Origin: Deltaproteobacteria bacterium
GTDB lineage: Bacteria; Myxococcota_A; Polyangia; DRWM01; JAAZOP01
Assembly: GCA_016930215.1 (NCBI GenBank)
Contig: JAFGHH010000409.1
Coordinates: 1-46,194 of the forward strand
Reading direction: 5' to 3'
Length of the DNA stretch: 46,194 nt
This document shows positions 970-14,503 of the stretch, in pieces; within the stretch, counting starts at the first letter, position 1; the number at the start of each line of letters is the position of its first letter. The notes under the pieces were generated by a model. That model was not told the origin of the DNA and searched no databases. It saw only the letters and a list, made by a program, of their open reading frames with translations. Position numbers and translations under genes: made by a program.

Positions 970-1177
970 CGGCTTCCCCTCCGCGGTCGGTCGCGTCGCC
1001 GAGCGGCTCGAACGCCAAGCAGTGAGCGATCGCGACCAGTAGGTTCGGGTCGAGCGCCTTCGCCATCCCGCAAACCACGTTGTGGCTGCAGCGCAGGCAG
1101 AGGTGGGTCTCGCGGTGGAGCGCCTTCATCTCGCCGAGCGGCAACTCGTCCAAGGGTCGTTCGGCACCGGTCGTCAT
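947..1177 (-). CDS. Small Cys-containing hypothetical protein
   Basis: A 76-residue protein starting at an ATG that shares the ATGA overlap with the end of the RuvC gene, so the start is well fixed. It holds CLRCSHNVVCGMAKALDP, a CxxC followed by a third Cys, plus one later Cys, with His residues before and after. These could ligate a metal. No family is recognised. It lies between RuvC and the zinc-ribbon protein in the leftward operon and is probably translated with them. Confidence 0.7.
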   Translation of the reverse strand: MTTGAERPLDELPLGEMKALHRETHLCLRCSHNVVCGMAKALDPNLLVAIAHCLAFEPLGDATDRGGEADGQLSLG

Positions 1178-1695
1178 GGCGAACCTCCGGCCGCTCGCAG
1201 GAGCGGCAACCGCGCCGCGTGGCAGATCGCGGCGGCAAGGGCGTCGGCGGCGTGCTCCGGGCGCGGCGGCTCGCGCATCCCGAGGTGCACCGCCACCGTC
1301 TTCTGCACCTGGGCCTTCGTGGCGTTTGCGTAGCCGACGACCGCGCGCTTGATCTCGCGGGCCGAGTACTCGGCGACCGGGATGCCCCGTGACCGGAGCG
1401 TCTCGCGCAGCATCCCGACGACGTTCGCCACCTGGAGCGACGACGTGACCGCCTTGCCGTAGAAACGGAACTCCTCGATCGCCGCCTCGTCCGGGTGCTG
1501 GTCGTCGAGGACCGCCTGGAGGCCGCACGCGAGTTCGCCCAGACGAACGGCGAGGTCGCGGCCGATCACCAAGCCGGGTCGGCGTTCCGTGCGGAGTACA
1601 CCAAAGGCGAGGGCCTGGATGCGGTCATCGTGCGCGCGGACGATGCCCCAGCCGAGCGCGGCCAGCCCCGGATCGAGGCCGAGGAGGACGGTCAT
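1174..1695 (-). CDS. ruvC: RuvC-type Holliday junction resolvase
   Basis: A 173-residue protein with the RNase H-fold signature of RuvC. GLDPG near the N-terminus gives the first catalytic Asp (D8). AIEEF supplies the catalytic Glu. The stretch REIKRAVVGYANATKAQVQ matches the conserved basic segment, and HAADALAAAICHA carries the last acidic residues. RuvC cuts four-way DNA junctions symmetrically as a dimer. The length equals the bacterial family norm, but the setting, next to a Cas4-like nuclease and without ruvA or ruvB, indicates an element-borne resolvase acting on replication or recombination intermediates. A strong Shine-Dalgarno AGGAGG sits 7 bases before the ATG. The start overlaps the stop of the upstream nuclease gene by one base. 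Confidence 0.9.
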   Translation of the reverse strand: MTVLLGLDPGLAALGWGIVRAHDDRIQALAFGVLRTERRPGLVIGRDLAVRLGELACGLQAVLDDQHPDEAAIEEFRFYGKAVTSSLQVANVVGMLRETLRSRGIPVAEYSAREIKRAVVGYANATKAQVQKTVAVHLGMREPPRPEHAADALAAAICHAARLPLLRAAGGSP

Positions 1696-2876
1696 CACCG
1701 CACCTCCTTGGCGTAGAAGCGCGGTACGACGGTCTTCTCCGCGACCGCATCGAGGTGCGCCTTGAGCATCCGGTGCTTCGCGCGGTTCATGTTGCGGGCG
1801 AGGTCCTTGACGAGCGCGTCGAGGCGGCCCTTGTCCACGACGAGGAGGCGGTCGCGCGCACGGTCGGGTGCCAGGCCTGCAAGCTCCTCGAGCACCGCGA
1901 GGGTCGGCCCGACCGGGTACGACGCCTGCGTCGCGCGGCTCATCTGGTAGACGACGCCGGCGAGCTCGAGCGTGTCGCGGCCCTCCAGTTGCGCCTTCAG
2001 GACCTCCTCCAACTCCGCCTTCCGGGCGTAGAGGATCTTCGCGAGGTGGGCGACCTGCTCCCGTTCCCGTGCGACGGCCTCCAGATCGTCGGGCGACGAC
2101 CTCACCACCTCGACGCGTCCCGCCACCGCGTCGCGGTAGGCAGGGCACTGGTTGCGGTGGTCGCAATACGAACAGTTCGCGTTGAGGCGGGCCGGGTAGT
2201 CGATGGCGGCCTCGGTCTGGCGCCCGAGCGCGATGATGTAGTCGCGGGCGGCCTCGACCTGGGCCTCCGTCCGCTCGGTCTCCATTTGGATCCCGTGCCG
2301 CAGTAGGTGGAAGACGAGCCGCACCTTCGCGGCCCATGGCCAGAGCTGGCGCGCGGCCATCAGGTAGACGGTGAGTTGGAAGTCGGAGTCGACCTCGTCG
2401 CGGGTGAAGATCAGGCGGTTGGTCTTGTAATCGATGATCGCGATGGTCTCGTCGTCGATGCGGTCCACGCGGTCGATGTAGCCGAGCACCTCGAACGCGC
2501 CGGCCGGCAGGCGAAACTCCTGTTCGACGGCGAGGACGTTGCGGTGGTCGACCTCGCCGTGCTCGCCCAGGTACGCATGCAGGATGTCCACGCCTTCCTG
2601 GAAGACGGCGAAGCCCGAGAGGCCGGAGCGTTGCCACTCCTCGCGGTACACCTCCAGCGCGCGTGCTTCCTCGATCCGGCCGGCGAACTCCTCGTCCACC
2701 ACCCAGCGGTAGAGCCGCTCGAGCACGGCGTGCAGAAGGCTCCCGAACCGCAGCGCGTCGTTCGGCTCGGCCTTGAGCTGGTCGACGTAGTGCAGCTTGA
2801 ACGAAAGGGGACACGACTCGAACCTCCTGAGGCGCGAGACGCTGAGGTGCTTGTTGGCGAACCCGTTCGAGTTCAT
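1695..2876 (-). CDS. PD-(D/E)XK nuclease with Fe-S cysteines (Cas4/RecB-like)
   Basis: A 393-residue protein of the RecB/Cas4-like nuclease superfamily (PF12705-type). Visible motifs in order are a Cys at position 22 (SRLRRFESCPLSF), a His in FGSLLHAVLE, the acidic GYIDRVDRID, IIDYKTN (the DxK of the active site), and the Gln motif DFQLTVYLMAA. The C-terminal CSYCDHRNQC completes the C-x(n)-C-x2-C-x5-C set that holds a 4Fe-4S cluster in Cas4, AddB and Dna2-type nucleases. Expected activity is single-strand exonuclease, often 5' to 3'. No cas genes or CRISPR array are present, so a role in element recombination or end processing alongside RuvC is more likely than spacer acquisition. It overlaps the upstream Cys-rich gene through ATGA. 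Confidence 0.88.
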   Translation of the reverse strand: MNSNGFANKHLSVSRLRRFESCPLSFKLHYVDQLKAEPNDALRFGSLLHAVLERLYRWVVDEEFAGRIEEARALEVYREEWQRSGLSGFAVFQEGVDILHAYLGEHGEVDHRNVLAVEQEFRLPAGAFEVLGYIDRVDRIDDETIAIIDYKTNRLIFTRDEVDSDFQLTVYLMAARQLWPWAAKVRLVFHLLRHGIQMETERTEAQVEAARDYIIALGRQTEAAIDYPARLNANCSYCDHRNQCPAYRDAVAGRVEVVRSSPDDLEAVAREREQVAHLAKILYARKAELEEVLKAQLEGRDTLELAGVVYQMSRATQASYPVGPTLAVLEELAGLAPDRARDRLLVVDKGRLDALVKDLARNMNRAKHRMLKAHLDAVAEKTVVPRFYAKEVR

Positions 2877-3472
2877 GACGCTTCCTTTCGCAGCTTCTCG
2901 AAGGCGACGACCTGCGCGCCGGGGAAGGCATCGACGATGAGCCGCAGCGTGGCGGCGTGCTCCGGCGTGATCTCTCGCCGGTCGCGCTCCGTGTACTCGG
3001 GGACCAGCCAGACGTCGCCGAGCGCGTCCGACCGCAGGCAGACCTCGACGCCGAGGGCCTTGAACGAGGCGATGTCCTCGTCGGAGATCCGTGGGATGGG
3101 TTCGCCAGGCGCGACCTCGGCCGGCGGCGTCGGGGGTGGTGACGCGACCCGCTCCGGTTTCCTCTTCGCCGGCCGCTTGGGAGCCGGTGGCGCGATGGGC
3201 ACGCCGAACAGGTCACGCGCCACATCGTCGGGCTTCGCTGCCGCTGGCGGCGGCTCCGTCGGCGCCGGCGCCTCCACGTGAACCGCTGAGGACCCCGGCT
3301 TCTGGCCGTTGGCCTTCAGCCACTCGGAGCACATCAATTCGTCCGCGAGCGCGCACGCGCCGTTGTCGAGGTAGTGCTGGCAGCGCTTCGAGCCCGGGAT
3401 CGGGCGGTAGTTCGGGCACTCGTAGGTGGATGCGGAGGGCTGGCGCACGGCGAGACGGTCGACGAGGCTCAT
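2873..3472 (-). CDS. Cys-rich hypothetical protein
   Basis: A 199-residue protein in three parts. The N-terminal 50 residues carry four cysteines (ECPNYRPIPGSKRCQHYLDN, then GAC and LMC), likely a metal or Fe-S site. A Pro/Ala/Lys-rich linker covers roughly residues 60-125. The C-terminal 70 residues have a mixed alpha/beta pattern, with GVEVCLRSDALGDVWLVPEY. No family is recognised with certainty. The position directly upstream of the Fe-S nuclease, with an ATGA overlap, suggests a shared function such as an accessory subunit, but this is inference. It is the first gene after the 3473-3821 control region and is therefore a candidate first gene of a transcript starting there. Confidence 0.75.
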   Translation of the reverse strand: MSLVDRLAVRQPSASTYECPNYRPIPGSKRCQHYLDNGACALADELMCSEWLKANGQKPGSSAVHVEAPAPTEPPPAAAKPDDVARDLFGVPIAPPAPKRPAKRKPERVASPPPTPPAEVAPGEPIPRISDEDIASFKALGVEVCLRSDALGDVWLVPEYTERDRREITPEHAATLRLIVDAFPGAQVVAFEKLRKEAS

Positions 3473-3821
3473 GACCGAGCCTCCTGCCGGGCCCCGCGCG
3501 AGTCCGGGCAGGTTACCGCTTCGAGCCGGTATCCTGCCGGAAGCCCGGTATCGAGAATCCCCTGCGCCTGCGGGCGGTTACCGGCAAGTTGCCAAGCTAC
3601 CGGGTTTTCGCGTGGCTGATGCCGCGCGTATGGAGCGTGATCGAAATTTTTTTTCGCGGGGTCCGCCCCCACGAATGTGAATTCCTCGCGCGCATACGTA
3701 GCTTCAGATCTTGATAGATCGGTATCTTGGTAACTTGAAAGGGAACCCCCCGAACCTCCGGCGTTTTCGACCAACGCAGCAGCCGGTAGCCTGGCGGTAA
3801 GATACCGGTAACTTCGGGGGG
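3473..3821. repeat. Gene-free control region with eight GGTAWC sites and an A/T tract
   Basis: This 349-base gap splits the leftward operon. GGTATC occurs at 3528, 3547 and 3721, and reversed at 3801. GGTAAC occurs at 3729 and 3807, and reversed at 3512 and 3577. Close variants are at 3596, 3785 and 3796. Some sites are spaced 19 bases apart (3528 and 3547), others 8 (3721 and 3729). In the middle is the A/T tract aaatttttttt (3645-3655) in otherwise GC-rich DNA. A cluster of short sites around an A/T-rich segment is what is expected of an operator array or a replication origin. Which of the two is unknown. Confidence 0.7.
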
Positions 3822-6800
3822 TCATCGGTCGTCCTCGCGCGCGGTCCAGCCGCTCGGGGAACCGGCGCGCTCGCCGCCCCAGGTACGGTCCTGCTGGATG
3901 GGGAACTCCTCGACGTCGAGGGACTCGGGGACCTTCTCGGGGTCGATGGCGACCGTGCGAACGAACTGGTCGCCGAGACTGACTCGCTTGTCGACCTCAA
4001 CCACATAGCTCTTGCGCTCGAGCTTCTCGCGGACGATCCGCTTGAGCGCCCGCAGGCCGTTCGTGTCGTCCTCCTGGTGGGCGCGCCCTCGCTCGGTCAG
4101 GTAGACCTGGTAGCAGGTCGGCAGATGCAGGCAGAGGAGGCCGTTCACCATCGCGTAGTGGCGGCTTTCCTGGAGCGCGCCCATGAGGGCGTAGGTGGAG
4201 AGCGCCTCAAGGAACTGGTCGAACGGATCCTTCGCGCCGCCGTCGCCGTCGAGGAGGTCCACGATGCAGGCGTTCGTGGCCGGGACGATGTCGAGTTCCG
4301 GCAACGTGACCCCCAGCGATTCCGCGAAGGCCTCGAACATGGTCAGGCCGAAGACCGTGACGACGAGGTTGTCGTGGCACCGCGGCGGGATGGGGGTGGC
4401 GTTGGGAATCTCGGCGACCAGCGAGTCCGTGACCGCGCGCGCCTTCCGGATGTCGGCGGCTGCGTCCCGCCCCAGGGCGAACTGGATGTACGGGGCGGCG
4501 AGCCCGCCGAGGTCGAGTTGCCGCACGCGCTCGAACGCGGCACGGTGCTCCGGGTGCGCATCGAGCCGGTTCTTGTTGGGCGAGACCGAGATCATCCGCT
4601 CGACGAGCGCCGCGTCGCCCTCGGGGCGGCTCTCGCCGGCGAGGCACACGGGTGCGGAAAGCGCATAGCTCGCGACCGTCAGGTCCGGGCGCCCGCGCTC
4701 CTCGGTCTCGCCTCCGTAGATGCGGCGGAGCAGGCGGTTCAGCCGGTCGAGCCGCTGCTTCGGCATGTCGCGCGGCTTGTACTCGTCGATGAAGATCGGC
4801 ACGGAGTCGGTCGACGACAGGAGCTTGATGAGGGCGAATTCGGTCTCGGTGGCGCTGAACGGATCGGTCTTGTTCACCACGCCGAAGAGCGGCCAGAGAA
4901 CTTCCTTGACGATGGACGTCTTGCCCGACCCCTGCGTGCCCCAGATGACGAGGATCGGGAAGTGGCCGAGCAGCCGCAGCAGGCGCGGCCGGAAGGGCGT
5001 GGCGAAGAACCAGCCGATGATCGGGAGCATCACGGCCGGCTCGTTCAGCTCAAGGAGCGCCGGCAGCACCTGGGCTGCGAGCGCACGCGCTTCTGCGAGA
5101 GGTGTCGGTGCGTAGCGGAGCCGCTTGGCGAACGACGAGGGGTTGGGGACGTAGAGAACCTCGTCGGCGTCCCGGAAGCCGTCGGGGGCGATGACGACGC
5201 CGGGCGCCACCCAGCGCGGGCCCGCGGCGGTCTCGATGTAGCCGAGGTTCAGCGTGCCTTGCCGGCGGGGAACCTTGTGCGACGAGAGCAGCCGCAGGAG
5301 GCCCTGCACCTGGTCGTCGGAGCCGGTCCACTGCAAGTCGGGCGACGGCAGCGCGCGCAGGAGGTCGCGCTTGGAGTGCCAGGCCGTCTTCGGGAAGAGG
5401 ACGTCGTGCAGGACGCTGCCGCCCTCGGTCCGCATGTCGCCGACGAGCAGCTCATCGCTCTCGCAGACGACGCGCTGGGTCGGCACGATGCTGAAGGAGG
5501 ACAGGACCTCGATGTCGCCGTCCCGGTTGATGACGTAGTAGTGGCCGGGCTCCTCGAATACCTCGCCGCGGACCCGTTCGCCGCGCTCGCTGGCGGCGGT
5601 GCCTCTCTCCGGCGAGCTCACCTTCTCGCTCCGCTCCTTGGGCATGAGCTGCCTGAGCAACTGGCCCAGCGTGCGGCGCTTGATCCCGAACCGCTTGCCG
5701 ATGGTGTCGAGGTAGCCGTCGCGCTCGAGCGGCACCGCGGTCGCGATCGCCTCCAGCACGGGGCGGAGCAGCGCGGTCAGGTCGGCCGGCGCCGTGCTGT
5801 GCGGGATGCGCTCGATCAGGTGTTCGGGGTAGCGCCTGGCGGCCGCGAGCACGGCCCCGAGCTCGTCCGGCGTGTGTGCCTTGAGGAACTCGTTGAGGTC
5901 GATCTTGTCGGCGCCGTCCGGGCGCGGGAGCAACGCGATGCGGACGTCGCGGCCCTCGCGGTGCAGCGCCGCCGCGGTCTCGATCGCCCCGGCCTCGCCG
6001 GCGCCGCTCGACTCCGCGTCGTTGCAGATGACGATCTTCTTCGCCCAGCGGGTGAGCCCGAGGAGCTTCGGCAGGTCGCGCTCCCGGAAGCGGGTCGTGA
6101 CGGGCGAGATGCACGCGAGGCCCGCCTGCATCGCGGAAATACAGTCCGTCACGCCCTCGGTGACGACCAGCTCCTCCGCGCCGCGCGCCGCATCCTCGTT
6201 GTAGAAGTAGTCATTGCCGACGGTCGGCGACACGTAGGCATGCTTCTCGGAGTGGGTGAGCAGCTTCTTGTACTTGGCCTTCTCCCACTCCTCGTCGCCC
6301 GTGAACTGCGTGGAGCGCGCGATGAAGTAGACGACGTGACCGTTCCTCCAGTACGGGAAGACGAGACGGTCGCAGAAGAAGTCCTCGATATGGCCGCCGG
6401 CGACGACGACGAAGAGGCCGGTCTTGAGCGCCAGCTCGCGCCCGACGCCGAGCCCCTCGCGGACGTGGTCGAAGAGGTGACCGTCGGCCCAGCCGAGGAG
6501 CAGACCGTCGATGGTCTCGTCGGTGAAGCCGTAATGGCTGCGGAACCACTCCTCGCGGATCTTCGTCGGCAGCACGCGGTGGTAGTGGGCGGCGGCCTGC
6601 CCGAGGAGGCGCTCGACGTCACGCCGCTCGACGAGCAGCGCCACTTCGCGCTGGTACTGCTCGTCGTCCTGGTCCGGGCGCCGGATGCCGGTACGCTCAG
6701 CCAGGGCGAAGAGCGCTTCCTTGAAGCCGCACTTCTCCCGCTCCTGGAGGTACGAGAAGACGTCGCCGCCAAGCCCACCGCCGTTCGAGAAGTCGTGCCA

Positions 6801-6971
6801 GGTCTGCGTGTCAGGCCAGACGACGAAGGACGGGTGTGTCTCCGTGTGGAAGGGCGACAGCCCCTTGAGCGTCTTGCCCGACGGTCGCAGCTCGATGTCG
6901 GCGCCGATGAGCTCGACGACGTCCGTCCGGCCGCGGACGGCCTCGACGAACTCACGGAAGCGGCTGCTCAC
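3822..6971 (-). CDS. Primase-helicase fusion with degenerate zinc ribbon
   Basis: A 1049-residue protein. Residues 1-90 match the DnaG CHC2 zinc-ribbon fold (LKGLSPFHTETHPSF, then HDFSNGGGLGGDVFSYL), but three zinc ligands are replaced: S39, D60 and N63 stand where Cys is expected, and only H42 remains. A TOPRIM domain follows near residue 265 (VTEGVTD, then ICNDAESSGAGEAGA), giving the metal-binding acidic residues of a primase. The C-terminal half is a P-loop ATPase with Walker A GTQGSGKTS near 678 and Walker B IFIDEY near 724, as in DUF927-type or superfamily 3-like phage helicases. Expected role: priming and unwinding at the element's origin. The GTG start is chosen because it shares a GTGA overlap with the upstream gene and directly precedes the conserved domain. 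Confidence 0.85.
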   Translation of the reverse strand: MSSRFREFVEAVRGRTDVVELIGADIELRPSGKTLKGLSPFHTETHPSFVVWPDTQTWHDFSNGGGLGGDVFSYLQEREKCGFKEALFALAERTGIRRPDQDDEQYQREVALLVERRDVERLLGQAAAHYHRVLPTKIREEWFRSHYGFTDETIDGLLLGWADGHLFDHVREGLGVGRELALKTGLFVVVAGGHIEDFFCDRLVFPYWRNGHVVYFIARSTQFTGDEEWEKAKYKKLLTHSEKHAYVSPTVGNDYFYNEDAARGAEELVVTEGVTDCISAMQAGLACISPVTTRFRERDLPKLLGLTRWAKKIVICNDAESSGAGEAGAIETAAALHREGRDVRIALLPRPDGADKIDLNEFLKAHTPDELGAVLAAARRYPEHLIERIPHSTAPADLTALLRPVLEAIATAVPLERDGYLDTIGKRFGIKRRTLGQLLRQLMPKERSEKVSSPERGTAASERGERVRGEVFEEPGHYYVINRDGDIEVLSSFSIVPTQRVVCESDELLVGDMRTEGGSVLHDVLFPKTAWHSKRDLLRALPSPDLQWTGSDDQVQGLLRLLSSHKVPRRQGTLNLGYIETAAGPRWVAPGVVIAPDGFRDADEVLYVPNPSSFAKRLRYAPTPLAEARALAAQVLPALLELNEPAVMLPIIGWFFATPFRPRLLRLLGHFPILVIWGTQGSGKTSIVKEVLWPLFGVVNKTDPFSATETEFALIKLLSSTDSVPIFIDEYKPRDMPKQRLDRLNRLLRRIYGGETEERGRPDLTVASYALSAPVCLAGESRPEGDAALVERMISVSPNKNRLDAHPEHRAAFERVRQLDLGGLAAPYIQFALGRDAAADIRKARAVTDSLVAEIPNATPIPPRCHDNLVVTVFGLTMFEAFAESLGVTLPELDIVPATNACIVDLLDGDGGAKDPFDQFLEALSTYALMGALQESRHYAMVNGLLCLHLPTCYQVYLTERGRAHQEDDTNGLRALKRIVREKLERKSYVVEVDKRVSLGDQFVRTVAIDPEKVPESLDVEEFPIQQDRTWGGERAGSPSGWTAREDDR

Positions 6972-7180
6972 CGGTTGCCTCCGTGAAGAAGGCCAAGGCG
7001 ACGGCGCGCCTCCTGGACCGCCCGGGCGAGGCTCGGCAGTTCCGTCGCGACGAGCTCGACCGCTGCATCGCGCAGCCGCGCATCGAGCTCGCGGTCGGAG
7101 AGCCTGTAGCCGCCGCCGGGCAGGTGAGGAGCCGGCGGACGACGCTGACCGCCATGGTCGCGTGTCGTCTTCGCGCTCAT
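6968..7180 (-). CDS. Small hypothetical protein upstream of the primase
   Basis: A 70-residue protein with an ATG start (ATGA overlap with the gene before it) and a GTGA overlap with the primase after it. The N-terminal 25 residues are polar; the remainder (ELDARLRDAAVELVATELPS and onward) should form two helices. Similar small helical proteins lie beside primases in many phages, but no family is recognised. Tight coupling at both ends supports that it is real and made in step with the primase. Confidence 0.65.
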   Translation of the reverse strand: MSAKTTRDHGGQRRPPAPHLPGGGYRLSDRELDARLRDAAVELVATELPSLARAVQEARRRLGLLHGGNR

Positions 7181-7465: not shown

Positions 7466-8892
7466 TCACCGCAGAAGGTCCGCGTACAGGCGCCGTCGCT
7501 CGCGGTACTGGCGGTAGAGCACCGGCACGTTCGCGTCGACGACGTCGAACAGAACGGGTTGGTCCTTGCCCGGGTGGGGCCGCATGAGCCGGCCGAGCCG
7601 CTGCGTGGTGCGTCCGCGCGTTCGTCCGGGGTAGGCGAGGACGATCCGCTCGAGGCACGGGATGTCGAGCCCCTCATCCGCCAGCGTCGAGGCGACCAGC
7701 ACGTCGATCTTCCCGGCGCGGAAATCGTCGAGGAGCGTGCGGCGCTCCGCGCGCGGCGTAGGGCCCACGAGGGCCTTGGCCGACACGCCCTGCTGGCCCA
7801 CCAACTCGGCCAGGTGGCGGCAGTGGTCCACGCGGCCCGACAGAACGAGCACGGCCCGCCCCCCGACCGCCTCCCGTGCGACCAGGTCAGCGATGAGAGC
7901 GTTGCGCCCCGCGTCCGTCGCCAGGGCCGCGAGGCACCGCGCGTAGTCCTCGGGGCCGCCGTACTCGAAGGTGAAGTCGGTGAAGATCGGCCGTACCTCG
8001 GGCGCCTCGAGGTAGCCGGCGTCGCAGAGCTCGCGATATCCGATCTCGAAGAGGCGCTCGCCGAGCGTCAGGTCGACGAGCGGACCGAGGCCGTCCTCTC
8101 GTTCCGGCGTCGCGGTCAGCCCCACCCGCCAGCGGGCGGGGATTCGGGACAGGACCGTCTGGAACGTGCTGCAAGGGGAGTGGTGCGCCTCGTCGACGAT
8201 CACGACGCCGAAGCGGGCCGCGAGCCTGGCGAACGCGCCGCCGTCGAGACGCACCATCGTCTGCACGGTGGCCACGGTGACGGGTCCGGGCCGCACCTCG
8301 CCCTCGGTGACGACGCCCGCGACCAGTCCGAGGCGCTCGCGCAGCGCCGCGATCCACTGGTCGAGCAGGTCCCGGGTGTGAACGATGACGAGCGTGGTGC
8401 GGCCCAAGTCGCTGATGGCCGCGACGCCGACGACCGTCTTGCCGCCGCCGCATGGCATGACCACGGTGCCCTGCGTGCCACGGCGGATGGCCGCTACGGC
8501 CTCCGCCTGGTAGGGGCGGAGGTCGATCCGCGGCAGCCCCGGCAGTGGATCTCCGACAACTCGGCGGTCGTGGAAGCGGAGCGCATGCCCCGCTTGCGCG
8601 AGGCGCTCGCGCAGGCGCGCGACGGCGCCCCGAGGCACGTGGACCCAGCCATCCGGCGCTTCGGCCAGGCATTCGATGCGCTCGGGCGTTGCGCCCAGGT
8701 AGCGGCCCATGCGCTTGCGTGCGACGTACTCGGGGTTCGGGAACGAGAGGTCGTGACGGAGGCCTTCGAGCACTCGTGCGGGCAGCTTGTCACGACGCAT
8801 GGCGATGGTGCCCGCGACGACCGCGATCACCTGGCGCACGGCTGGCGCGGCCGCCGGCGCAGGTTCGACCCGCAGAGCGCACGCGCCCGTCA

Positions 8893-8896
<4 letters not shown>
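7466..8896 (-). CDS. DEAH-box superfamily 2 helicase (XPB/SSL2-like)
   Basis: A 476-residue protein. An N-terminal segment of about 130 residues precedes a helicase core: LRPYQAEAV, Walker A MPCGGGKTVV, HTRDLLDQW (motif Ia), VATVQTM, the DEAH box VIVDEAHHSP, GLTATPERED (motif III), then the second RecA domain with VLVASTLADEGLDIP and TTQRLGRLMRP (motif VI with its arginines). This order and spelling match XPB-like or restriction-helicase-type ATPases. The role is duplex translocation or unwinding, most likely in element replication or recombination. Two Met codons lie in tandem; the first overlaps the DinG gene stop (ATGA) and is taken as the start. Confidence 0.88.
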
Positions 8897-10815
<1,919 letters not shown>

Positions 10816-11744: not shown

Positions 11745-12170
11745 CGGATTCCTCCTCCTTCCTGCTGCGGCCCGCGGCGTTCGCCGCGAGCCTGATGGGC
11801 GGTGGCCTTGAGCAAGGGGGATGCCGGCCCGTTCGGGCGACGGGAAACGCGGGAAATTCGCGATCATGCGGAACGGGCCCCGCCGGCGGCTGCCGTCGAA
11901 GAGGCGGTTTCGGGCGAGGACCCCCGCCGAGGAGCCGATTCGGGCCAACAAAGAACCGATGACCCCCAAGAATGAACCGATTGGCCCGAGAAATGAGCCG
12001 ATTGGCCCGAAGAATGAACCGCAAATGGCCCGAATCAGGGACCGCAAATGGCCCGAATCGGCGGCCATGGCCCGAAGCGGCGGCAGGTGCAAGCCCTGCG
12101 GATCCGGCCGGTTGCGGCGCGGGGCTTCCCTCTCGCGGGTCGGTACGCTCGTTGCTCAAGGGCCCGGTCG
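11745..12170. promoter_or_regulatory. Divergent control region with tandem repeats
   Basis: No gene is supported in this 426-base gap between the leftward replication operon and the rightward recombinase cluster. It should hold promoters for both, though no clear -35/-10 pair was found. It contains a perfect hairpin at 11773-11788 (CGCGGCG, TT, CGCCGCG) and the tandem repeats at 11935-12064. Frames running through the repeats on either strand only reflect the 21-base periodicity. Confidence 0.65.
11935..12064. repeat. Iteron-like tandem repeats, four of 21 bp and two of 23 bp
   Basis: Units start at 11935, 11956, 11977 and 11998 (21 bp each), then 12019 and 12042 (23 bp each); a partial seventh begins at 12065. 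The best-conserved form begins CCGATTGGCCCGAAGAATG; the 23-bp form begins CCGCAAATGGCCCGAATC. All share a GGCCCGA core apart from divergent units 1 and 2. A 21-bp period is two helical turns, so a protein would bind one face, as for replication initiators on plasmid and phage iterons. No spacers are present, so this is not a CRISPR array. Confidence 0.8.
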
Positions 12171-12413
12171 ATGGGCGACGCGAGCGGCCCCTGGTTTCCG
12201 GAGTTCGACTACGCGCCGGAGGAACGGCTCGCGGCGATCGCCGAGATCCTCTTGCATGGCATGCGGCGCATGCAGGCAGAGCGCAGGCGGGAGAGGACGA
12301 GGCGGTGGCGCGAGAGGAGCGCCGGCACGGGGAGGTTGAATCGAGTTGATGTTCCGACCGGAACGAGCCCTCGTGTTCGGGAGGAGGCAACACGATGCGA
12401 CGACAGGAAGTGA
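12171..12413 (+). CDS. Small hypothetical protein upstream of recombinases
   Basis: An 80-residue protein starting at ATG (MGDASGPWFPEFDYAPEERL). The middle (EERLAAIAEILLHGMRRMQA) is a clear amphipathic helix, followed by an Arg-rich stretch that could bind nucleic acid. It overlaps the next gene by 19 bases, so the two are likely translated together. No family is recognised. Being the first gene of the rightward recombinase cluster, a role in regulating or directing recombination is a guess from position only. Confidence 0.55.
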   Translation: MGDASGPWFPEFDYAPEERLAAIAEILLHGMRRMQAERRRERTRRWRERSAGTGRLNRVDVPTGTSPRVREEATRCDDRK

Positions 12414-12769
12414 CGGAGAGGAGGGCCGAGAGGGCGCCGTCGGTGCGGTGCGCCTCGTACGTGCGGACGGCGACGACGGACGAGAGCTCGATCACCCGGC
12501 AGCGCGAGGAAACGGGTGCCCTGGTCCGGATGCACGCCGCGGACGGGTGGGTTCTCGTCGCGCCGCCCTACGAGGATGTGGGCGTGAGCGGGCGGGAGGC
12601 GGACCGGCCGGGACTGATGCAGTTGCTCGGCGATGTCGAGGCGGGCTGCATCGACGTGGTGATCGCGGCGGACGTCGCCCGGCTCGGGCGAAGCGCGCGC
12701 CTCGTCGGGGAGATCCTCGCGCGGTTCGCGGCGCGCGGGGTTGCAGTCGTCCACCCGCTGTCGGGTTGA
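12395..12769 (+). CDS. Truncated serine recombinase lacking the catalytic serine
   Basis: A 124-residue protein that aligns with the resolvase catalytic domain only. The active-site segment YVRTATTDESS replaces the family's YxRVSTDEQ, so the nucleophilic Ser is Ala26. Other landmarks remain: ITRQREE, GVSGREADRPGLMQLL, IDVVIAADVARLGRSARL. The frame stops at VAVVHPLSG, before the long helix E and DNA-binding parts. It is preceded by a good Shine-Dalgarno (GGAGGAGG) and ends 4 bases before the full-length recombinase, which also begins MRRQ, so the pair probably arose by duplication. It may be a non-catalytic partner or directionality factor, or merely a remnant. Confidence 0.75.
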   Translation: MRRQEVTERRAERAPSVRCASYVRTATTDESSITRQREETGALVRMHAADGWVLVAPPYEDVGVSGREADRPGLMQLLGDVEAGCIDVVIAADVARLGRSARLVGEILARFAARGVAVVHPLSG

Positions 12770-12773
12770 AGTG

Positions 12774-14503
<1,730 letters not shown>

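Follow-up and report, generated by a model that had tools for sequence, protein, structure and literature searches.

A cluster of GGTAWC sites as the probable iteron origin of an integrated virus-like element

Between two genes of a replication operon, eight copies of the word GGTAWC (W, A or T) crowd into 301 bp. What reads them, and for what purpose? The original prediction, made from the letters alone, proposed a repressor or initiator array and, with it, a second promoter within the operon. Here we analyse the cluster within the window, that is, the whole 46,194-bp contig of a 6.4-Mb assembly in 611 contigs, and compare it with arrays found near related helicases. An integrated virus-like element probably (probability roughly 0.75) starts its replication at this cluster, whose sites would act as iterons bound by the winged helix of the primase-helicase next to it, on the pattern of the SaPI/PICI islands. 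For the window itself, we infer binding by its own protein, melting of the spacer and origin activity.

Organization of the operon and the element

The left ~12 kb of the window hold a minus-strand replication/recombination operon that encodes a DinG-like helicase, an SF2 helicase, a primase-helicase, the protein P199, a PD-(D/E)XK exonuclease and RuvC. The array is located between the stop codon of the primase-helicase (3822–3824) and the start of P199 (3472), and its nearest exact site ends at 3812. The features are:

1174–1716, minus strand: RuvC resolvase (PF02075)
1695–2876, minus strand: PD-(D/E)XK exonuclease (PF12705)
2873–3472, minus strand: P199, a conserved 199-aa protein downstream of the array, present in 23 of 317 class genomes (a count that takes in the genome of the window)
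3469–3825, minus strand: open frame of 118 aa, judged non-coding from codon use
3512–3601, no strand: left iteron block, with GGTAWC at 3512–3517 (−), 3528–3533 (+), 3547–3552 (+) and 3577–3582 (−), and the near match GGTAGC at 3596–3601 (−)
3602–3720, no strand: spacer of 119 bp between the blocks, candidate melting site, with an A/T run at 3644–3654
3721–3812, no strand: right iteron block, with GGTAWC at 3721–3726 (+), 3729–3734 (+), 3801–3806 (−) and 3807–3812 (+), and the near matches GGTAGC at 3785 (+) and GGTAAG at 3796 (+)
3822–6974, minus strand: DnaG-type primase (zinc ribbon, Toprim) fused to an AAA+ helicase, the proposed initiator (Pfam and fold; the 5′ end of the frame is uncertain, as it is open to 7208)
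3945–4157, minus strand: winged-helix-like domain at the helicase C terminus, the proposed GGTAWC reader (structure model residues 489–559 and alignment; role inferred from type A relatives)
4017–4055, minus strand: second helix of this domain, the candidate recognition helix (structure model and alignment)
7466–9184, minus strand: SF2 helicase of the same operon (Pfam)
12741–14468, plus strand: large serine recombinase adjoining tRNA-Asp (14427–14503), the probable right end of the integrated element

Because the large serine recombinase and tRNA-Asp follow at 12.7–14.5 kb, the element is probably integrated and phage-like, and cut by the left end of the contig. A 124-aa stand-alone resolvase N-terminal domain (12395–12766, plus strand) directly precedes the full recombinase. 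P199 has no match in Pfam or PHROG. Searching viral_contigs with the whole window primase matched five stretches, none of them confirmed as a close relative, and searches with the C-terminal half of the primase and with P199 matched nothing in the three genomes of the same genus.

Density and layout of the GGTAWC sites

Eight of the 16 GGTAWC sites in the window fall within 3512–3812, the number originally reported for these ~300 bases. With GGTAWC, chosen post hoc as the test word, 0.05 sites would be expected in 301 bp from the density of the other eight (Poisson P = 1.4 × 10−15), and local dinucleotide shuffles yielded eight in 0 of 5,000 trials (mean 0.34, largest 4); the earlier estimate from composition was fewer than one. 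An unrestricted search over 6-mers with one wildcard is much less extreme (best family CCGG.A with 11 sites; 11 or more in 13 of 1,000 shuffles). The plain exact-7-mer score of the cluster is moderate (−8.3, with two other places in the window scoring stronger) because the GGTAWC word is degenerate. One-mismatch matches number eight against 2.2 expected in 333 bp; two of them (GGTTAC) are overlap artefacts of GTTACC sites, and three retain the GGTA core (GGTAGC at 3596 and 3785, GGTAAG at 3796), which agrees with the three near matches noted before. The A/T run described at the centre of the cluster lies between the two blocks.

The exact sites occur in both orientations, and successive sites start 16, 19, 30, 144, 8, 72 and 6 bp apart. 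Across the 6.4-Mb genome, directly repeated GGTAWC pairs occur 15 times and the reversed pattern twice, and only one of the direct pairs is inside the cluster. The array divides 4|4 by exact sites, with 144 bp between the facing exact sites, or 125 bp if the near match at 3596 is taken as a site. This layout recurs elsewhere: each of the 24 arrays measured, for which borders and words were chosen manually after the arrays had been found, forms two near-equal blocks whose facing sites start 71–144 bp apart (mean 105, s.d. 15). Under uniform placement of sites, a mean of 7.2 arrays out of 24, and at most 16 in any of 2,000 trials, were this balanced. In 18 of the 24 arrays the A+T content of the spacer exceeds that of the blocks, and in six it does not; the spacers of the Halorubrum virus CGphi46, L184 and L197 are instead rich in alternating CG/CA. 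In the window the bias is modest (45% A+T in the spacer, 39% in the blocks and 31% in the flanking genes).

Arrays at related helicases

The C-terminal half of the primase exists as two types, A and B, that share no BLAST similarity. Type A was detected in 40 of 317 class genomes (E 1 × 10−20) and type B, to which the window belongs, in 17 of 317 (E 1 × 10−15). An array was called when a 7-mer score of −9 or lower was reached within 1.5 kb downstream of the helicase match, a cut set after the scores had been seen. By this measure, arrays lie downstream of 34 of 89 related helicase domains and upstream of 0 of 88. These totals combine 53 loci (34 with an array downstream; 0 of 51 upstream) with 42 more, 36 of them evaluable downstream, that gave no array. 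The 34 positives include near-duplicates (for example, L189/L191 and L197/L198) and L175, whose AATAGCA repeat, 0.9 kb off, may be unrelated; L174 was scored past its array. Among 22 control DnaG loci, one reached −12.1 (a purine run) and the others scored −8.5 or weaker.

The arrays are unevenly distributed between groups. Within 1.5 kb downstream they were found at 11 of 30 type A loci from class genomes plus vir525, at 16 of 17 type A loci from IMG/VR and at 7 of 8 loci of the GGTAAC-like group with CGphi46. Next to the primase, 0 of 19 type B class loci (window included) and 0 of 4 type B loci from IMG/VR pass the −9 cut; the window (−7.1) and G120 (−8.6) miss it because their words are degenerate. 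None of 11 annotated phages with related helicases (phiCbK, Colossus, Lana, UAntarctica, D69, Arash, RpAliso, ESSI2, SHOU24, K468a and Mea-Yong924-1) has an array within 1.5 kb downstream, and three of them have a dense word cluster beyond that distance.

The word itself differs from locus to locus. The order primase, array, P199 recurs in G037, G085, G276 and G120 with a different word each time; the primase–P199 interval contains AAGTCCGGC in G085, AAGTCGGCG/AAGTCGTC in G037 and CAGATCT in G276. A AAGTCCGGC array also lies 2.5 kb after the primase in G079. Dense 7-mer scans at other related helicase genes returned arrays of ACGTTCC, GGGAACC, ATCCCCC, AGAACCC and ATCACCC, and two Myxococcus genomes carry AAGTCCG arrays ~1.5–2 kb upstream of the primase match. 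Outside the bacteria, CGphi46 has an ATGTTAC/GGTGTAAC array in the 449-bp gap after its primase, a Methanosarcinales virus has a GCGGGTA array and a Natronococcus plasmid has a TGTGAAA array in the gap before a DUF927 gene. In L154, L155, L156 and L171, four IMG/VR contigs retrieved by scanning with helicase alignments, the arrays at type-B-like helicases use GGTAAC itself. Conservation of the sites in homologous elements, the check put forward with the original prediction, has a divided outcome: the GGTAWC word is lost in relatives, which was named as a result that would refute the prediction, yet arrays persist there with other words.

Most type B relatives have an array of KGGACA words upstream of P199 and not beside the primase. 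Eleven P199-upstream regions from ten type B genomes other than the window's each contain 6–12 KGGACA sites within 1.3 kb of P199, compared with 0–5 over ~2 kb on its other side; G160 has zero KGGACA in its P199-upstream region. Where both genes are on one contig, the primase is 6–10 kb from the P199-upstream array, except in G120, where GGGACG/GGGACA words are arranged as in the window. In 20 other P199-upstream regions, GGTAWC occurs zero times in 16, once in three and twice in one, so that the word is not conserved. Since the P199-upstream region of the window has eight GGTAWC sites and no KGGACA, and since G120 has the same arrangement with other words, the window appears, from these sequence comparisons, to have re-worded its array. 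P199 was considered as the array reader and dropped, as several array-bearing loci have no P199 match.

The array word follows a helix residue in type A relatives

Among type A proteins, the L183 family (73–100% identical pairwise) allows close relatives to be compared. Thr in the helix GDRSQRxRLGKAL goes with ACGTTCCCC arrays in five elements; another five (including two copies) have Ile at the same position together with mixed ACATTCCCC/ACGTTCCCC arrays, and one with the helix HSRRIRLGKSL has a ACACTCCCC array. With sites counted over whole loci, and with L191 (a copy of L189) and L053 (a distant relative) left out of the Fisher count, G occupies N in 66 of 67 ACNTTCCC sites of the Thr group (5 elements) and in 22 of 57 of the Ile group (4 elements); the Fisher value overstates the link because sites within one element are non-independent. 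Nine of the 601 columns of the C-terminal alignment separate the Thr and Ile groups, eight of them in the tail encoded by the array and one being the recognition-helix residue.

More distant type A helicases pair Thr with GTTCCC words (G200, G253) and Ile with ATCCCC (G084). Ser at this residue accompanies AAGTCCGGC, AAGTCGGCG and CCCGGCA words, but TTACAAC in L184; because Ser goes with several words, other residues matter too. L182 has the type A helix, and no array was found there. The link of residue to word in type A points to the winged helix as the reader. The arrays of L183, L186–L193, L195 and L196 overlap the 3′ end of the helicase frame, where translation gives GER/RSP-like repeats.

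Predicted fold of the window helicase

The window primase-helicase matches PF01807 and PF13155 in its N-terminal half, and its helicase and winged helix are seen in the structure model. This model (mean pLDDT 81) has winged-helix topology at residues 489–559. A fold search retrieved SCCmec Cch (Z 22.7, r.m.s.d. 6.8, 474 residues aligned) and SaPIbov1 Rep (Z 21.2, r.m.s.d. 5.9, 449 residues aligned), with alignments that span model residues 19–575 and both extend into the winged helix; the next best match was MCM (Z 14.1). The model of the L154 helicase (mean pLDDT 58.6) is confident only in parts, which include the winged helix. Shared architecture and predicted fold, rather than sequence similarity, thus make the window's winged helix the candidate reader of GGTAWC.

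Comparison with known origins

SaPI Rep uses its C-terminal domain to read iterons directly downstream of its own gene (PMC7581432), and PICI origins are described as always having two iteron sets flanking an AT-rich region (PMC6092414). The window resembles these islands in three respects: its array is immediately 3′ of the proposed initiator gene (a position that most type B relatives do not share), a spacer is flanked by two sets of short iterons, and the proposed initiator, the counterpart of Rep or Pri-Rep in the islands, is in the predicted model an AAA+ helicase of the Rep/Cch kind with the winged helix at its C terminus. However, the window primase is DnaG-type (zinc ribbon and Toprim) and fused to the helicase, whereas the SaPIbov1 and SaPI5 primases belong to the AEP family (PMC7581432). 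The element also differs from SaPI/PICI in carrying an exonuclease, RuvC and a serine recombinase, and its named array-bearing relatives are Myxococcus, a haloarchaeal virus, a Methanosarcinales virus and a haloarchaeal plasmid.

Other replicons share single features with the window. The P4 origin carries iterons, and P4 alpha, as in the window, unites Toprim primase and helicase in one protein. Iteron plasmid origins of the RK2/R6K/P1 type have long (~17–22 bp) direct repeats in one orientation, unlike the short sites of the window with their steps of 6–144 bp and both orientations. The P4 alpha primase is of the Toprim type (PMC4234260) and fused with the initiating helicase (PMC7145576). 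In plasmids of the pRN1 type, the origin follows the gene of a replication protein that carries a winged helix at its C terminus, as the array does in the window, but that origin is described as a ~100-nt stem-loop without iterons (PMC4234260). In the PLE satellites of Vibrio cholerae, which have a RepA_N initiator and three ~30-bp iterons where the window has an AAA+ helicase, origin and initiator covary and diversify (PMC7145576, PMC8263062), as the array words do here. Altered iterons in Vibrio satellites escape an origin-directed helper-phage nuclease that cuts at iterons (PMC8263062); by analogy, an iteron-cutting nuclease is one possible driver of the word changes at these arrays.

Among literature titles and abstract openings, no description of this array family in myxobacterial prophages or CGphi46 was found, and the portion of PMC10544981 that mentions the CGphi46 primase-helicase does so without the word iteron.

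In the mechanism that we propose, about eleven iterons (core GGTAWC, wider form roughly CCGGTAWC) would stand in two blocks around the ~119-bp spacer, directly after the primase-helicase gene. The C-terminal winged helix of the primase-helicase would bind them, and the bound initiator would load helicase rings on each side. The spacer would be melted, and the fused DnaG-type primase would then start synthesis.

Alternative readings of the array

The origin iterons might at the same time autoregulate the operon, as they do in many iteron replicons. The position of the array within the operon, between two replication/recombination modules, suits such a double role, against which stands that no promoter was found; we regard it as possible and hold it tentatively. 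A scan of 3300–4000 for sigma-70-like sites, the one promoter type covered, found none, and the second promoter once proposed to separate the nuclease-RuvC half of the operon from the primase half has no support.

A pure operator, at which a repressor of the element or P199 would bind GGTAWC and control a promoter for P199, the exonuclease and RuvC, is unlikely. P199 has four cysteines at its N terminus, and an array is found upstream of its gene both in the window and, composed of different words, in the majority of type B relatives. However, tblastn detected no P199 match in the array-bearing loci L039, L040, L048, L138, L139 and L144–L147 (some of them short contigs), the L183-family array lies partly within the helicase reading frame, the word tracks a helicase residue in relatives and the promoter scan was empty. 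A better operator candidate is a second array in the window, seven copies of GCCCGAA at 11832–12076 (three on the minus strand, then four on the plus strand, these last four 19–23 bp apart), located at the divergent head of the operon. Its stretch, bounded by the replication operon on one side and the serine recombinase on the other, shows no coding signal and is likely an operator or control region. As for the pair "repressor or initiator array" in the original prediction, the recurring layout, the residue–word link in relatives and the helicase fold favour the initiator; the GGTAWC array could also serve a repressor, because initiators can also regulate.

That the array is part of a real 118-aa gene, its sites a by-product of protein repeats, is highly improbable: the open frame has ATGA overlaps at both ends (with the primase-helicase stop and the P199 start), but its GC3 of 0.58 falls below the 0.88–0.93 of P199, the exonuclease and RuvC, its codons score −0.27 in log-likelihood where those three genes (on which, among others, the codon table was trained) score +0.26 to +0.43, it matches no Pfam family at E 0.01 and nothing by tblastn in two sets of related loci (10 and 22), and the GGTAWC sites lie in both orientations. 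The stretch was first described as containing no gene, which holds for coding signal and not for the reading frame, since an open frame does span it. This frame might help ribosomes to travel across the array as far as P199.

Implications of the origin reading

If the array is an iteron origin, an unexplained cluster becomes a testable origin with a named likely reader. A layout known from staphylococcal and enterobacterial islands would extend, with a different primase, to Myxococcus-type prophages and archaeal viruses. The two-block plan, said in 2018 to occur in "no other known bacterial replicon" than the PICIs (PMC6092414), would be widespread outside them. We put at about even odds the broader proposal that a family of primase-helicase replicons (prophages, archaeal viruses and a haloarchaeal plasmid) follows one plan, with two blocks ~105 bp apart, and that its word has been repeatedly re-set through small changes in the winged helix, in which single residues can map to single bases. 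The many natural pairs of word and helix would then form a dataset on how an initiator changes its target along with a dozen sites at once. Such pairs bear on incompatibility, superinfection exclusion and iteron-cutting nucleases, and could supply sequence-specific origins for vectors in under-served hosts.

Further word clusters

Additional clusters were observed at several of the loci. Two genes downstream of the primase, Vibrio phage SHOU24 (L162) has seven CTGAAAC at ~8000 and Vibrio phage K468a (L168) eight CAGTTTC at ~7000; Microcystis phage Mea-Yong924-1 (L158) has eight TCGGACA at 8476–8876, ~3 kb downstream of its primase. A cluster of four to five GTTACCA lies 1.3–1.6 kb downstream of the ACRTTCCCC array in L187, L189, L190 and L192 (at ~5600) and in L196 (at ~2230). 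In L145 (G101), two arrays adjoin at 1987–2818, with the words ATCACCC and CCCCGCA, the second within tandem copies of ~117 bp.
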